Assembly: GCA_035549195.1 (NCBI GenBank)
Contig: DASZRK010000002.1
Span: forward strand, 62,001-126,000
DNA from: a bacterium
GTDB lineage: Bacteria; Oederibacteriota; Muellerivitia; Muellerivitales; Muellerivitaceae
DNA length: 64,000 nucleotides
Reading direction: 5' to 3'
Each line of letters starts with the position of its first letter. The first letter of the stretch is position 1. The notes beneath the pieces are model-generated. The model did no database searches, had not been told where the DNA came from, and saw nothing but the letters and a program-made list of their open reading frames with translations. The position numbers and the translations under genes are program-made. Of the stretch, positions 2,290 to 59,906 are shown in pieces.

Positions 2290-3780
2290 CTATTTCGATG
2301 CCGGGTTCCAACTCGCCCATTCACCATACGCTACCGGCCCCTGCCTTAATGGGACTTTGGTGGCGGATTGGACCGTCGGGTCCGCCTTCAACCGCGCAAT
2401 GATCCCATCGGCATTTCCACCGGTCACCTTCAAGAAGTAATCAGGGTTCAAGCCGTCCGAGGACCCATCGTCCGCTCCAAATCTCGCCAGGACCTTTGTT
2501 CTCTCCTCCAAGGAAGTGCCGTTTTGAAAGTGGATCGCGATCCGGTCCGGTTCCTGGCCCTTCAACAGGCAAAGCGCATTTTCCTCATTCCCGGGTTTTC
2601 CATCCGCCTTCTCAAAGGACCCGACTTCGACACGCGGAAAGCCGGAAACCCAATGAAGACGCCCGACGATCCGAAGATAGGCTTGCTGGTCCGGAATATC
2701 CTGGTCCCAATAGACCAAGATCCGCCTATAACATCCCCCGGGAACCGGGAGGGGCTCATCCGGCACAAAATAAGCGATCCGTTCCTTATCCAGGGGAAGG
2801 GTCATCGATCCCGGTCCCGTCTTTATCCTCTTCCCCAACAAACCCGTGAAAGTCACTGGATCGTTCTCGGTCTCAAGATGGACATAGGCATTAGCGCCGC
2901 TCACGTCCCCATGGTCCCGGGCCAATCCGTACCATTTCTTCGCTTCCGCCAGGTCCTTGTTCAACCCACGGACTTTCTTGCCTGATGCATAACCCGTTTC
3001 AAAATAGGATCCGAGTTCGTTCTCGGCGGGACCCCATCCCTGTTGGGCGGCCTTCTTGATCCATTCCAAGCCTTTCTCCCGATTGTCGTCGGTGTAGCCC
3101 TCCCACTCCTGGTACCCACCCAAGTAATAGCGGCCCAATTGGTACTCGGCATCGGGGTCCCCCTTTTCGGCCCGGAACTTGGCCGACTCAAAAGGAAGGG
3201 TCGGGGCCACGGAAACACCCCTTTGGGTCACAGGGGAAAAACCCGTCGGCACAAATGAATATCGCGGCTGGATCATGGCCGCCTCTTCGCAGCTCAAACC
3301 CCATTGTCGGAGCCATGGCGGGAGCAATGGATTTTTCATGTCCATGACAAGGGCTTCGTTTTCCAAATGGGAGATGGTCTCCACGGCCTTTCGGCCTGCC
3401 GTCTTCTCGACCAGGTATCCCACCGCGCAGACCGCGCCATTGTCGCCGATGAATTCCGGCGTCCTTTTGAGGAACCGGTGATTTTCCGGGAATTTCCCGG
3501 CTTCCCGGTAATCCCTCAGGAGGTCCATAAGATGGAGCCGATTCGACCTCTGTTCTTTTGAAAGTCCCCTCACCCTTCCGGCCCGGAACCTCTTTTCCAG
3601 GATGGCCAAATGGATTTGGATCCGTTGTTTTTCCGTGGTTCGGGGTAAAAAAGCGGCGATGTTCTTAAAGTGGCCGTCGTAACGGGCCATCCCCCGTTCC
3701 AGGTCCGGGACTTTTTCGGCGTGGCCGATCATTCGACCCACGATGAGGAAAAAAATGATCAGTGGATTTTTTATTCGCAT
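2290..3780 (-). CDS. Secreted Sel1-repeat protein of unknown function
   Basis: I chose the ATG at 3780 because GAGGA lies just upstream and the protein then begins with a signal peptide (MRIKNPLIIFFLIVGRM, cleavage near GHA-EK); an ATG at 3837 would bury it. The 496-residue product has an N-terminal helical region, a block around NGAVCAVGYL...LSCEEAAMIQP that I recall only as a conserved unnamed region, two or three Sel1-type repeats (AEYQLGRYYLGG, EKGLEWIKKAAQQG, AEAKKWYGLARDHG) near the middle, and a C-terminal domain with no recognised motif. Sel1 repeats usually mediate protein-protein contacts. No partner is evident from the neighbours. Confidence 0.8.
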   Translation of the reverse strand: MRIKNPLIIFFLIVGRMIGHAEKVPDLERGMARYDGHFKNIAAFLPRTTEKQRIQIHLAILEKRFRAGRVRGLSKEQRSNRLHLMDLLRDYREAGKFPENHRFLKRTPEFIGDNGAVCAVGYLVEKTAGRKAVETISHLENEALVMDMKNPLLPPWLRQWGLSCEEAAMIQPRYSFVPTGFSPVTQRGVSVAPTLPFESAKFRAEKGDPDAEYQLGRYYLGGYQEWEGYTDDNREKGLEWIKKAAQQGWGPAENELGSYFETGYASGKKVRGLNKDLAEAKKWYGLARDHGDVSGANAYVHLETENDPVTFTGLLGKRIKTGPGSMTLPLDKERIAYFVPDEPLPVPGGCYRRILVYWDQDIPDQQAYLRIVGRLHWVSGFPRVEVGSFEKADGKPGNEENALCLLKGQEPDRIAIHFQNGTSLEERTKVLARFGADDGSSDGLNPDYFLKVTGGNADGIIARLKADPTVQSATKVPLRQGPVAYGEWASWNPASK

Positions 3781-3833
3781 GGATCCTCGGGATGACCACG
3801 ACGAGATCATCAAGAACGACCGATATGACCGCC

Positions 3834-4271
3834 TCAAAGCTCCATGAGCTCCAGCAGCCCTTCGGGATAGAGCGGGACCTTGCCGGCGTGCAGGTCCTTC
3901 AAGGGCACCCAGACCGCCTTGCCGAGCGTCCTGCCCCCTTCCAGGATGGGCCGCTCCGCCGCCTCATAGAGGGCGGGGTCGGTCAGGTCGCCCCGGAAGA
4001 TGATGAGGATCTCGTGGCCCGACTCGCCCGTCAGGGGGAAGGGGCTCTCCATCTGGCCGTAGGATTCGAGGTTCTTCAGTTCAGCCCCGATCCCCTCGCG
4101 GAAGGCCCGGCGCACCGTCTGCTGTTCGGGCTCGCCGAACCCCACCCGGCCCCCCAAGGGGCGGTAATAGGTCCCACCCTTGGCCTTGTCCTGGCATTCC
4201 ATCAAAAGGACGCGGCCATCCTTCTCGACGACGCAGACGGCCACGACATGAACGGCATCACTTCCCTGCAT
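3834..4271 (-). CDS. Nudix-fold protein with degenerate Nudix box
   Basis: A 145-residue protein with the Nudix fold pattern: an early strand VHVVAVCVVEKDGRVLLMEC, a GGTYYRPLGG turn, then the box GRVGFGEPEQQTVRRAFREG. The canonical core REUxEExGU reads RAFREGIGA here: the first Glu is Ala and the last Glu is Gly. Both positions normally bind catalytic metal, so hydrolysis of a nucleoside diphosphate derivative is doubtful. AGGAG lies before the ATG, and the start overlaps the preceding gene by 14 bp, indicating translational coupling. It may be a binding or regulatory member of the family. Confidence 0.85.
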   Translation of the reverse strand: MQGSDAVHVVAVCVVEKDGRVLLMECQDKAKGGTYYRPLGGRVGFGEPEQQTVRRAFREGIGAELKNLESYGQMESPFPLTGESGHEILIIFRGDLTDPALYEAAERPILEGGRTLGKAVWVPLKDLHAGKVPLYPEGLLELMEL

Positions 4272-55318: not shown

Positions 55319-56626
55319 TCAGCGGCGCCCCAGGATCCTCCGGGCGGCGGACGTTCCTTGGGCGATGGCGCTTTCCATGCTCCCGTACTCCCAAAGGCCG
55401 TAGCGGCCCACGCCATCCACGCCTTTACGCCGGTAATGGTCCAGGAGCTCCGGCACGCACTCGCGGTCCCGGTCATAGATCACATAGGCACCGGGCAGGT
55501 CCAGGTCCGCCCGGCTGACGACCTGCTTCCCGCTCTTGATCCAGCCCAGGTGCTTCAGGCCTTCCAGGGCCTGCTTCCCCAGGACCTTCGGCGAGGGCCG
55601 CGGGCCCCGGTAGGAGAATTCCACATAAAGGGAAAAGTGCCCCGAGGGGGCGACCGTGGGCACGCAGGCGCTCACCGAACCGGCCCGGTGGAAGGTGAAC
55701 TCGGCCCCCGGGAAATAGACCCAGCTATAGGGGATGGGTTGGCGCCCCCGGAGGCCCAGGTTGATGTTGTAGATCGAGGTGGCCTTGAGCCTGCCGGCCA
55801 TCCGGCGCAGGCCCGCCGGAAGGTCGCGGGTCAAGCGGACCAGGCGGGGCAGGGGAAGGCTGGAGACCATCCGGTCGAAGGGGACCGCCCGTCCATCCTT
55901 CAGCCACGCGGTCCTTTTCCCCAGGTGGAGCCCCGCCAGTTCGGCCCCGAGCCAAAGGTCCGGGAGCCCTTTCGCGATGGCCTGGGGGAGGATGGAGATG
56001 CCGCCCTGGTCGGGATAGAGGAACGTGGCGTTGTAGCCCGCGCTGGAGTTGCGGGAGCCCCGGGCCCCTTCCAGGACCTCCAGGACCCTCGGGCGGGGCA
56101 CGAAGCGCCCCATCCAATGGGTCGAGAGTTTGTGCAGCGGGAACTTCCAGAGCTTTTGGTTGTAGGGGAACATGAAATTCTTGGAGATGCCTTCGCCGAA
56201 AGAGCGCAGGCACCAGGTCCTGAAATCATCCGCCGGGCCCGTCCCGTCCGCCGACCGCCGCCCCAACTGGGCTTGGAGATAGCCCAGGACGTTCTCCCGC
56301 ACGGTGGCGCTGGGAAGTCCCGCGTTGTTCTCCTGGTAGGGATATTCGCTGTAGGTCCCTTCGCTATGGATGACCGCGTGGCGGCGGCGGACCTTGAGCC
56401 GGTCCCCGACCCATCCAAGCACCCATTCCTTGACCTTGGGGTCCTGGAAGTGGAGGAAGTGCCCCGTGTAATCGTAGGTGAAACCCTGGGTCAGCACGGA
56501 ACGGCAGAGGCCGCCCGGATCCTTTTCCTTCTCGACGAGGAGATAGGGATGGGAATGTTGGAAGAGCTCCCGGGCGCAGGACAGTCCCGCCAAGCCGCCG
56601 CCCGCGATGAGGACGCGGGGCTTCAT
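55319..56626 (-). CDS. FAD-dependent UDP-galactopyranose-mutase-like flavoenzyme
   Basis: A 435-residue flavoprotein. The dinucleotide fold is seen at the N-terminus (VLIAGGGLAGLSCARELFQ) with EKEKDPGGLCRS following, and the C-terminal FAD site near GVGRYGLWEYGSMESAIAQG. Between are GISKNFMFPYNQKLWKFPL and GYNATFLYPDQGGISILPQA, patterns found in UDP-galactopyranose mutase and related amine-oxidase-fold enzymes. The gene overlaps the WecA-like gene by 4 bp, pointing to a cell-surface polysaccharide pathway. Confidence 0.85.
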   Translation of the reverse strand: MKPRVLIAGGGLAGLSCARELFQHSHPYLLVEKEKDPGGLCRSVLTQGFTYDYTGHFLHFQDPKVKEWVLGWVGDRLKVRRRHAVIHSEGTYSEYPYQENNAGLPSATVRENVLGYLQAQLGRRSADGTGPADDFRTWCLRSFGEGISKNFMFPYNQKLWKFPLHKLSTHWMGRFVPRPRVLEVLEGARGSRNSSAGYNATFLYPDQGGISILPQAIAKGLPDLWLGAELAGLHLGKRTAWLKDGRAVPFDRMVSSLPLPRLVRLTRDLPAGLRRMAGRLKATSIYNINLGLRGRQPIPYSWVYFPGAEFTFHRAGSVSACVPTVAPSGHFSLYVEFSYRGPRPSPKVLGKQALEGLKHLGWIKSGKQVVSRADLDLPGAYVIYDRDRECVPELLDHYRRKGVDGVGRYGLWEYGSMESAIAQGTSAARRILGRR

Positions 56627-57714
56627 TTCTTCCGGGACTTTCGGGGGCTCCGGTCAGGGGGCTTCAGGAAAAGCCGGAAGGGGTTCTCCCGGACCTTTTG
56701 TTTCCCCTCGTCCACCGGGATCACCGAGACCGCCACCGTGAAAAGGAGCGTCAAGGTGAAGAGTCCCAAGAGGAGGATGGTCGCCCTTTTTTCGGAGACA
56801 TGGACCAGCACCCAGGCCGCGATCCCCAGGAGGATGGAAAGCCCCCAAAGGGTCCCGACCACCTGCTTGACCGTCATGCCCACCGCCCGCAGGCGCAAGG
56901 CCAAGTGGTCGTTGGAGCCGCGGAACATGGAACGTCCCTTCAGGAAGCGCAGGAACATGACCAGGGCCGTGTCGTAAAGGGGGATCCCGAGGATGAGCAG
57001 GGGGGCCAGGAGGCCTTCCACGTTCACTTGGGAATAGCCGTGGCCCATGGCGAGTCCCGCCAGGACGAAACCCAGGAACAGGGCGCCCGAGTCCCCCATA
57101 TAGATCCTGGCCGGTTGGTAGTTGTAGGGAAGGAACCCCAGGACGCTCCCCCCCAGCGCGGCAGCGGTCAGGTGAACATAGCTATGCGGCCCCAGGGCAG
57201 GGACCAAGGCGAAACCCAGGCAGGCCAGGACCGTTACCCCGCCCGCCAGCCCATCCATGATGTCGATGAGGTTCACCGCGTTGGTGACCGCCAGCACCCA
57301 GAAGACCGTCAGGACTTTCCCCAACCAGGGGTGGCTGGGCAGGAACTCCAACTGAACACCGAAAAGGATCAGCAAGGCCGCCGCCAGGACCTGGAAGAGG
57401 AACTTGATGCCCGGTCCCAGGGAGAAGAGATCGTCCACCAGTCCCAGGATGGCCATGACCGTGCCTCCGGCGAGCAGGGCCAGGACCCGGGGCCCATCCT
57501 CCGGCGGGGTGAGGATCAAGGCCGAAAGGATGCCCATCAGGAAGGCGAAATAGATGGCCAGGCCGCCCAGGTAGGGGATGGGCGCCGTGTGCTTCTTGAG
57601 CTGGCCTTGCGGGCTGTCCAGGAACTGGGTGCGAAGGGCGATCTTGCGGAAAAGGGGGGTCAGCCCCAGGGAAAGGGCGAAGGTGATGAAAAAGAGCAGC
57701 CAGTCGGTGTTCAG
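56623..57714 (-). CDS. WecA/TagO-like polyprenyl-phosphate sugar-1-phosphate transferase
   Basis: A polytopic membrane enzyme with about 11 helices that would load the first sugar-phosphate onto undecaprenyl phosphate. Seen: the DD motif in AILGLVDDLFSLG, NAVNLIDIMDGLAGG, ARIYMGDSGALFLG and the HxxxR-type region HLALRLRAVG. A perfect GGAGG lies seven bases before CTG 57714, which gives the N-terminus NTDWLLFFITF; a GTG at 57750 adds 12 residues but has no ribosome site. I prefer the unusual CTG. It is coupled to the flavoenzyme gene. Confidence 0.85.
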   Translation of the reverse strand: MNTDWLLFFITFALSLGLTPLFRKIALRTQFLDSPQGQLKKHTAPIPYLGGLAIYFAFLMGILSALILTPPEDGPRVLALLAGGTVMAILGLVDDLFSLGPGIKFLFQVLAAALLILFGVQLEFLPSHPWLGKVLTVFWVLAVTNAVNLIDIMDGLAGGVTVLACLGFALVPALGPHSYVHLTAAALGGSVLGFLPYNYQPARIYMGDSGALFLGFVLAGLAMGHGYSQVNVEGLLAPLLILGIPLYDTALVMFLRFLKGRSMFRGSNDHLALRLRAVGMTVKQVVGTLWGLSILLGIAAWVLVHVSEKRATILLLGLFTLTLLFTVAVSVIPVDEGKQKVRENPFRLFLKPPDRSPRKSRKK

Positions 57715-57803
57715 GGGTGTCCTCCAAAGCGGATGCTGTCTTTCAGGCACTATAACACAGGGGGGAAAGGGTTAAAATTCGGTGGAAAATGGCCCTTGGG
57801 GCA

Positions 57804-57882
57804 TAAAAAAAGAGCCCCGGTGGGTCGACCGAGGCTCTGGAGGTGAGTTTTGATTCGTTTAGGCCAGTTGTCGCTGACCTGC
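57804..57882 (-). ncRNA. Candidate sigma-54-dependent small RNA (about 79 nt)
   Basis: From the predicted start at 57882, the RNA runs through an unpaired region (GCAGGTCAGCGACAAC ... AACTCACCTCC) to a 10-bp terminator stem AGAGCCTCGG/CCGGGGCTCT (57838-57829 with 57820-57811) and a T run. CACCTCC (57845-57839), a direct complement of strong Shine-Dalgarno sites, sits just before the stem. There is no open frame of note. It lies between the sigma-54 activator gene and the WecA-like gene. It could instead be an attenuated leader for the latter. Confidence 0.6.
57811..57838 (-). terminator. Intrinsic terminator after the small RNA
   Basis: A 10-bp stem with one G-U pair and an 8-base loop, followed by six or seven T residues on the minus strand. 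It also closes read-through transcription from the activator gene. Confidence 0.85.
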
Positions 57883-57892
57883 ATTACATATA

Positions 57893-57908
57893 AGCAATGC
57901 TTGTGCCA
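57893..57908 (-). promoter_or_regulatory. Sigma-54 (-24/-12) promoter
   Basis: Minus strand TGGCACAAGCATTGCT fits TGGCAC-N5-TTGCW exactly, with GG and GC at the required spacing. The predicted transcription start is near 57882. It lies about 115 bp downstream of the stop of a sigma-54 activator gene, in an AT-rich stretch. Confidence 0.72.
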
Positions 57909-57961
57909 ATCTTTGGTCTTTTTACAATGGCTCAAAATAAGGGTTTTGGGACCCAGCTTCT

Positions 57962-58028
57962 TCGAACTGAACCGTTCGAGTGTAAAATAATTATACTATT
58001 GATAACCAAGTGTTAATTATATTTACAC
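57962..58028. promoter_or_regulatory. Possible activator binding sites upstream of the sigma-54 promoter
   Basis: Two dyads: TCGAAC/GTTCGA (57962-57967 with 57974-57979), 54 bp upstream of the -24 element, and GTGTAAA/TTTACAC (57980-57986 with 58022-58028), which frames an AT-rich region and overlaps the end of the activator gene. Position and symmetry fit enhancer sites, but binding is inferred. Confidence 0.4.
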
Positions 58029-59906
58029 TTTGGATGTTTTCAGGCCGTATTTCCTGATCTTTTGATAGAGGGTCGGTCGGCTGATCCCCAGCCGCAAGGC
58101 CGCCTGCTTCTTGTTGAACCCGGCTTCCTGCAGCACCCGCAGGATCAGGTCCTTCTCCCCCTTCTCCAGGACCCCGATCCCGGGAAGGGTGGCCGCTTCC
58201 GATGCCAAAAGGCCCTGCGCCTCGGCCCACTCCGCCGGCAAATGCCGGGGCTCGATCACCACATCGTCATGCAAGGTCACGATCCGTTCGATGACATTCT
58301 CCAGCTCCCGGACATTGCCCGGCCAGCGGTAACGGGCCATGGCCTGGAGCGCCTCGGACGAAAAGGTCTCGAAACGCGTCGGCCGTTCCTTCTTCAGCCG
58401 GTCGAGGAAATAACGGGCCAAGATCGCCAGGTCCTCTCCCCGGTCCCTCAGGGGCGGCATCTCCAGCACGATGACGTTGAGCCGGTAGAAAAGGTCCTCC
58501 CGGAAGTGGCCGTCCTGGATGGCCTTCTTGAGGTCCCGGTTGGTGGCGGCGATGACCCGGATATCGACCTTCACCCGCTCGGTCCCTCCCACCCGCTCGA
58601 ACTCCCGTTCCTGGAGGACCCGAAGGAGCTTCACCTGGGTGGCCGCCGAGATCTCCCCGATCTCGTCCAGGAAGACCGTGCCGCCGTCGGCGGCCTCGAA
58701 CTTGCCGATCTTCCGACCCACCGCTCCCGTGAAGGAGCCCTTCTCATGGCCGAAAAGCTCGCTTTCCAGCAGGGTCTCGCTCAACGCCGAACACACCAGG
58801 GGCACGAAGGGCCGGTCGTGCCGGGCGGACTGCTCATGGATGGAGCGGGCCACCAGTTCCTTGCCCGTTCCGTTCTCCCCCAGGATGAGGACCGTGGCGT
58901 CGCTCGCCGCCGCGCGCTTGATGAGGTCCCGGATCTTCCGCATGGGGGCGCAATCGCCGATCAAGGAGGTCTCCCCCACGGGCTGTTCCTTGCGGGCGGT
59001 GGCAGCCGAGACCATGGATTTGGACAGGGCGAAAAGGATGGAAGCGGCGTCCTTGGAGGACTTCACGAAATCCTCGTAGTCCTTGCGCATGCGGCCGGTC
59101 AGGCCCTCGTGGTAATAGACCTGCCCCAGGTTGTAGATGGCGTTCACATGGTCCGGGTCCTGCTTCAGGACATCCTTGAACTCGGCCACCGCCTTTTCCA
59201 GCTCCCCCTTCTTGAAGTAGCAGATGCCCAGGTCGTTCTGCAGGTTCCACCTTTCCTCTCCCGCCGGGACCTTCTTCAAGGCCTTGCGGTAGGCGGTGAT
59301 GGCTTCGTCGAAACGCTCCAAGGCCATCAGGCAGTCGCCCGATGCGCCGAGGGCGGGAAGGTTGCCCGGGTTCCCCTCCAGGGTCCTTTGGTATTGCTCC
59401 AGGGCCTTTTCCAGCTCCCCCTTCTCCTTGAACAGGGCTCCCAGGTTCATGCGGCATTGGTACTCCAGGGTCTGGGCCGAATGGAAAAGCCCCAGGTAAT
59501 AGGCGCCCGGAGTGATGGGGTGCAGCAGCCGGAGGGCCTCGAGGAATTCGAAGGCCGCATCGTTCACCTGCCCCCGTTGGCGGTGGATGAGGCCGCAATT
59601 GAAGTGGATGTCCAGGTGATTGGGGTTGATCCGCAGGGCCTTCTGGTAATGGTCCAGGGCCACCCCCAGGTCCTGCCCATGGAAGGCCGCATGCCCCACG
59701 TCCCTCAGCGCGAAGGAATTGAAGGGATTCTTCTTGGCCACCGCCTTGAAGGACCGCAGGGCCTTGTCATACTCCCCTTCCTCGAAAGCCGCGATGCCTT
59801 CCTCGGTGGCCTTGTCCAAGGGTTCATGGACCGCGCCGCAGACCGGGCAATATCGGTGTTCGGCCTCCAGGGGATTCCCGCATTCGCGGCAGGGAAAGAG
59901 GGCCAT
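58023..59906 (-). CDS. Zinc-ribbon/TPR sigma-54 transcription activator
   Basis: A 627-residue regulator with an unusual front end. C6, C9, C20 and C23 (CRECG, CPVCG) form a zinc ribbon. TPRs span about 35-290 (for example [41 protein letters not shown]). The AAA+ domain has Walker A GENGTGKE (343-350), sigma-54 loop GSFTGA (390-395) in place of GAFTGA, and [21 protein letters not shown]. The C-terminal Fis-type helix-turn-helix is [20 protein letters not shown]. It has no receiver, so control is likely by protein contact with the TPRs. Confidence 0.93.

Follow-up and report, generated by a model that had tools for sequence, protein, structure and literature searches.

The window, a stretch of 64,000 nucleotides, carries on its minus strand, in a single direction, a gene for a predicted membrane protein of 123 residues, a gene for a sigma-54 activator, a pair of candidate enhancer dyads, a -24/-12 promoter element, a predicted small RNA that ends in an intrinsic terminator, and a gene for a WecA-like glycosyltransferase (Table 1). 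An earlier note on this DNA had placed a sigma-54 promoter, followed by a short terminated RNA, about 115 bp past the stop codon of the activator gene, and this layout was borne out, with the stop codon at 58023.

The activator combines TPR repeats, an AAA+ sigma-54 domain with a GSFTGA loop and a Fis-type HTH, carries two CxxC pairs at its N-terminus, and gave no match to a receiver domain. Full-length relatives were found in 20 of the 45 phylum genomes, all of them with the sigma-54 contact loop (GSFTGA/GAFTGA; 20/20). Almost all genomes examined have a homologue of the 123-residue protein in front of the activator or of its TPR remnant; this probably membrane-bound protein may be the signal partner of the activator.

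Table 1. Features of the locus, in order of transcription.
Feature	Position	Strand	Basis
Predicted membrane protein, 123 residues	59910..60281	minus	membrane nature read from sequence
Sigma-54 activator gene	58023..59906	minus	domains read from sequence and profiles
Candidate enhancer dyad 1 (UAS1) TGTAAATATAATTAACA	58011..58027	minus	TGT-N11-ACA
Candidate enhancer dyad 2 (UAS2) AGTATAATTATTTTACA	57981..57997	minus	aligned position
Sigma-54 -24/-12 promoter TGGCAC-AAGCA-TTGCT	57893..57908	minus	zero mismatches
Predicted small RNA, ~79 nt	57804..57882	minus	start placed at the usual 12-nt distance from the -12 element
5' hairpin AGGTCAG-CGACAA-CTGGCCT	57861..57880	minus	fold and covariation
Single-stranded linker AAACGAATCAAAACTCACCTCC	57839..57860	minus	alignment
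Intrinsic terminator AGAGCCTCGGTCGACCCACCGGGGCTCT and T7	57811..57838	minus	11 pairs, 7 G-C
Separate extended -10-like element of wecA TGTGTTATAGT	57749..57759	minus	conserved in the family
WecA-like glycosyltransferase family 4 gene	56623..57750	minus	PF00953

Promoter, enhancer dyads and predicted RNA

The promoter element TGGCACAAGCATTGCT was claimed to be a full match to the sigma-54 consensus; it agrees with TGGCAC-N5-TTGCW at every position and is the single perfect match in the 64-kb window. A search of the whole genome with TGGCAY-N5-TTGCW returned 8 perfect matches, versus 7 for the reversed control; taken alone, the match is at chance level, and its significance comes from its conservation across nine genomes, not from the match itself. 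The promoter halves TGGCA and TTGCT were unchanged in all eight genomes of the family, and the second half reads ATGCT in the ninth. Elsewhere in the same genome, perfect sigma-54 elements precede genes for an ammonium transporter, a nitrate/nitrite transporter, a porin-like protein and a MoaA-like protein, a nitrogen-type regulon whose elements lack TGT-N11-ACA dyads.

The dyad symmetries described between the activator gene and the promoter stood in part. A pair of TGT-N11-ACA dyads, starting ~119 and ~89 bp upstream of the -24 element, was conserved, whereas the TTCGAA dyad near 57961-57981 (TTCGAAC...GTTCGAG) was rejected, its sequence not being kept by the relatives. UAS1, at 119 bp, shares bases with the stop codon of the activator; UAS2 departs from the pattern by one base in the genome of the window and is intact in seven of the nine genomes. 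Upstream of the promoter, the nine genomes together contain sixteen such dyads, where dinucleotide shuffles gave 0.34; the count peaks clearly at the N11 spacing and drops to few or none at the adjacent spacings. Both dyads were displaced by 10-12 bp, about one helical turn, in the ninth genome. The window's own genome has seven further sigma-54-like sites, all of them without a TGT-N11-ACA dyad.

For the 85-nt strand, the predicted folding energy is -29.2 kcal/mol (z = -4.15 against shuffled sequence), in line with the claim of an RNA of about 79 nt closed by a strong terminator, and RNAalifold recovered both hairpins from an alignment that had not been fitted to the structure. Double changes were observed in the fitted alignment at 7 pairs and in 13 cells, versus 3.8 and 4.9 in shuffles, and this covariation signal was lost when the pairing partners were slid. 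The 5' hairpin shows double changes at six pairs and keeps its loop GCGACAAC within the family, and the terminator loop GACCCACC was unchanged in the nine genomes. The linker between the hairpins is single-stranded and follows the pattern AAACGAATCAAAA..CUCACCUCC; its UCACCUCC matches, base for base, the anti-Shine-Dalgarno tail of the 16S rRNA of the same genome (GGATCACCTCCTTTCT), and the CACCTCC reported just before the stem is present at 57845..57839.

Judged by comparison across the genomes, the RNA is non-coding: neither a reading frame nor a start codon nor a Shine-Dalgarno site is kept. Rfam yielded no match at the gathering threshold or at E<=5, the Qrr and GlmY/GlmZ models included, in agreement with the suggestion that the RNA is unlike those families; it probably represents an undescribed regulatory RNA gene of ~80-100 bases.

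Conservation and probable independence of the module

DNA matches to the module were found in all of the seven other genomes of the family, with the activator gene on one side and the wecA-like gene on the other wherever the contig permits, and the gene order tpr123-activator-RNA-wecA-FAD gene was common to the family genomes. The conserved blocks begin at the enhancer dyads and reach the T tract; past it, little is kept besides a second promoter-like element. A covariance model built from the promoter and RNA of the eight family genomes alone detected the ninth locus, which belongs to a second family of the order, with E = 1.2e-7; its neighbors are likewise an activator, a wecA-like gene and a FAD gene. 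The module was present, then, in 8/8 family genomes and in the single genome that represents the second family, with the -24/-12 element and the stem conserved among these relatives. For the remaining 36 phylum genomes, the top covariance matches (E = 5e-4 or weaker) were ordinary terminators or coding sequence; the weak matches were discarded as further copies, being chance terminators, and an extra DNA match that resembled a second copy in G004 was the terminator that follows pnp.

The ninth genome retains the terminator and its loop, keeps neither the 5' hairpin nor its loop, and carries UAUCUCCCC as linker, while the linker of G004 is ACAGCCUCC, that is, AGCCTCC instead of CACCTCC. Since the hairpin loop or the linker is altered in these two genomes, the terminator loop is the most conserved part of the RNA. 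CACCTCC is carried by the majority of members and not by all of them. The idea that it serves as a targeting seed found no support in this comparison: within the family just the CCTCC core is kept throughout, the second family has it altered, and a shared target was not found.

The association of a sigma-54 small RNA with a neighboring sigma-54 activator gained support from the joint conservation of promoter, dyads and terminator, and of the hairpin within the family. The rpoN gene was detected in all nine RNA-bearing genomes, and it is accompanied there by an activator containing the sigma-54-contacting loop. No Hfq was detected in these nine genomes with the PF17209 profile; genomes vary in completeness, and absences such as this one rest on profile searches of partly incomplete genomes.

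Downstream of the RNA, the terminator lies ~95 bp before the probable start of the wecA-like gene, and the family genomes carry TGTGTTATAGTGCC or a near variant 3' of it, an extended -10-like element that would provide wecA with its own transcription start. As far as sequence can tell, this conserved element beyond the terminator favors a short RNA over a transcript reading through into wecA, the outcome that the earlier note had set against its proposal. The start codon of the wecA-like gene is probably the CTG at 57712-57714 and not the GTG at 57750; the position aligned to the CTG is ATG in G004 and TTG in G002 and G005, and the GTG falls inside the -10-like element. A 0.9-kb insertion with its own gene parts the activator from an intact RNA module in G006, and in G001 the activator and the module are on separate contigs with unrelated sequence beside each, a separation that apparently stems from foreign DNA or rearrangement. 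Because wecA has its own -10 element and these two genomes keep the module apart from the activator, the module looks like an independent transcription unit. Besides its single gene, the G006 insertion (L025, about 3080-3950) contains 63 bp that nearly duplicate the 3' end of the activator gene.

A small protein in the same slot

In the eleven activator-bearing genomes outside the order of the window, the activator gene was followed by a sigma-54 element and a gene for a protein of 61-65 residues. The promoter in this slot was TGGCAY-N5-TTGCT or close to it, with only the GG-N10-GC core in G013, and the upstream regions often contained repeats of GTTTACA or GTTAACA, spaced by roughly one helical turn. 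The ~62-residue protein carries the motif GHxGAGK...GVKKG (loci L099-L113) and had no Pfam or NCBIfam match; a relation to L7Ae was discarded, the similarity to solved structures being marginal and not significant (E 0.15). A profile search recovered the protein in 15 phylum genomes, disregarding one extra weak match with E 0.09, and in 0/9 of the RNA-bearing genomes, so that a homologue encoded elsewhere in those genomes was also dropped as a candidate target of the RNA. A relative with 47% identity was observed in a 173-kb IMG/VR contig with phage-like small genes (L139:3001-3165).

Three genomes of a further family (G014, G025 and G022) encode the small-protein domain and the TPR half of the activator as one fused frame, from which the AAA+ and DNA-binding parts are missing. 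Fusion of the two in one family is a hint that the small protein and the TPR part may work together.

Since the RNA occupies the protein's slot beside the activator, a single circuit appears to deliver an RNA in one lineage and a protein in others. In a tree built from the AAA+ part, the activators of the RNA-bearing genomes fell into one group (96/99), apart from those of the protein-bearing genomes, with a rooting not firm enough to settle the direction of the swap. Replacement of the protein by the RNA in this order would be the simpler reading, given that the protein is spread over more families, although loss of the protein and gain of the RNA may have been separate events. As a working picture, put forward with less confidence than the account of the RNA gene itself, a single slot composed of a membrane TPR protein, a TPR-type sigma-54 activator, enhancers and a sigma-54 promoter could have two products, the 62-residue protein in most of the phylum and, in one order, a structured RNA that took its place, perhaps in a feedback role.

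Interpretation and comparison with known systems

The likely explanation, in our judgment, is a free-standing, non-coding small RNA gene transcribed from the sigma-54 promoter and switched on by the upstream TPR activator through the two dyads. Sigma-54 RNA polymerase would transcribe a non-coding RNA of ~80-100 nt, and the TPR-containing activator encoded just upstream would switch it on by binding the two TGT-N11-ACA dyads, which lie some 120 and 90 bp upstream of the promoter. At the level of sequence, this account is carried by the conserved module, its structure, its non-coding nature, the occurrence of rpoN and of an activator with the contact loop alongside it, and its persistence apart from the activator gene; that the RNA is transcribed, that the neighboring activator is the acting one and that the RNA acts in trans is what we infer from them.

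Its most likely mode of action is proposed more tentatively: the linker CUCACCUCC, and perhaps the terminator loop GACCCACC, may plausibly pair with ribosome-binding regions of mRNAs independently of Hfq. The linker complement GGAGGTGAGT occurred 0-5 times per genome outside the RNA, before genes that were not orthologous, and no conserved target with an extended linker complement was shared among the RNA-bearing genomes searched. Adjacent genes paired with the linker no better than with shuffled linkers. The candidate amtB reached -14.9 kcal/mol and beat 300 shuffles, yet it ranked only 11th of the 116 ribosome-binding-like sites in the examined parts of the genome and therefore gave no evidence of targeting.

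A real sigma-54 RNA that acts on a protein instead of pairing with mRNAs, as a decoy or in feedback on the TPR activator, is the less probable alternative but a serious rival, because of the slot's product elsewhere in the phylum: there the slot yields a small protein, fused in one family to the TPR half of the activator, a hint that the product of the promoter talks back to the activator. The conserved hairpin loop and terminator loop, the lack of a conserved mRNA target and the case of CrcZ, the nearest analogue in layout, which titrates Hfq (PMC4063720), would fit such a role, whereas the exposed linker resembles a pairing region. Two forms of it were discarded, namely titration of Hfq in the manner of CrcZ, no Hfq that could be titrated having been detected in the nine genomes, and a CsrA sponge of the CsrB/RsmZ type, GGA motifs being absent or isolated and not recurrent.

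The remaining readings fared worse. A cis-acting leader, in which transcription from the sigma-54 promoter continues into wecA and the terminator acts as an attenuator or riboswitch, could draw on the strand and gene order shared in eight genomes and on the short distance to wecA; it is improbable in view of the conserved -10-like element 3' of the terminator, of folds that reveal no alternative antiterminator pairing, and of the lack of an Rfam leader match. An accidental -24/-12 match, with a conserved terminator that serves only the activator mRNA, would agree with the chance frequency of perfect matches genome-wide, but we consider it very improbable, given promoter halves that are invariant while the genomes differ elsewhere, positioned enhancer dyads, a covarying 5' hairpin, a module that survives separation from the activator, and sigma-54 promoters at the same place that drive protein genes in other families. 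Equally poor are the prospects of a tiny peptide encoded by the RNA: ATG open frames exist in G000 and G001, but the frame is broken in G002 and G007, there is no conserved start codon and no Shine-Dalgarno site, and the changes observed compensate pairs.

Among known systems, the free-standing RNA gene favored here is nearest in layout to CrcZ of Pseudomonas, an RpoN-dependent small RNA gene immediately downstream of cbrB and activated by CbrB (PMC10562864; PMC4063720); both have a sigma-54 small RNA gene just 3' of an activator gene, here that of its presumed activator. CbrB is, however, a phosphorylated two-component regulator, whereas the activator described here is without a receiver domain, and CrcZ titrates Hfq via A-rich motifs in contrast to our genomes, where Hfq was not detected. 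In the form of its enhancers, the locus is closest to GlmY/QseF-GlrR of the Enterobacteriaceae, with TGT-N12-ACA sites beside the qseEGF operon (PMC6075780) in place of TGT-N11-ACA. GlmY, too, is a sigma-54 small RNA whose synteny with the activator operon is conserved, but its gene is found upstream of that operon, and the RNA works through RapZ/GlmZ and differs from ours in sequence and fold. Qrr1 of Vibrio is a sigma-54 small RNA that likewise adjoins its activator gene, luxO, and has conserved enhancer sites (PMC8043402), but the two genes are divergent, LuxO belongs to the response regulators, and the RNA sequence is unrelated. RNAs of the Hfq-independent type such as RoxS/RsaE and LhrC expose a C-rich segment able to pair with Shine-Dalgarno sites, and the linker resembles it, although its motif is a different one and varies within the order.

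Sigma-54 small RNAs with a dedicated neighboring activator are well documented in Gammaproteobacteria (CrcZ, GlmY and Qrr1); the locus described here would extend them to an uncultured phylum, with no detectable Hfq and with an activator that is not a two-component regulator. Mutually exclusive RNA and small protein behind the same activator and promoter would make an exchange of RNA and protein outputs directly accessible to study, and the fusion of the small protein to the TPR half makes a feedback function testable.
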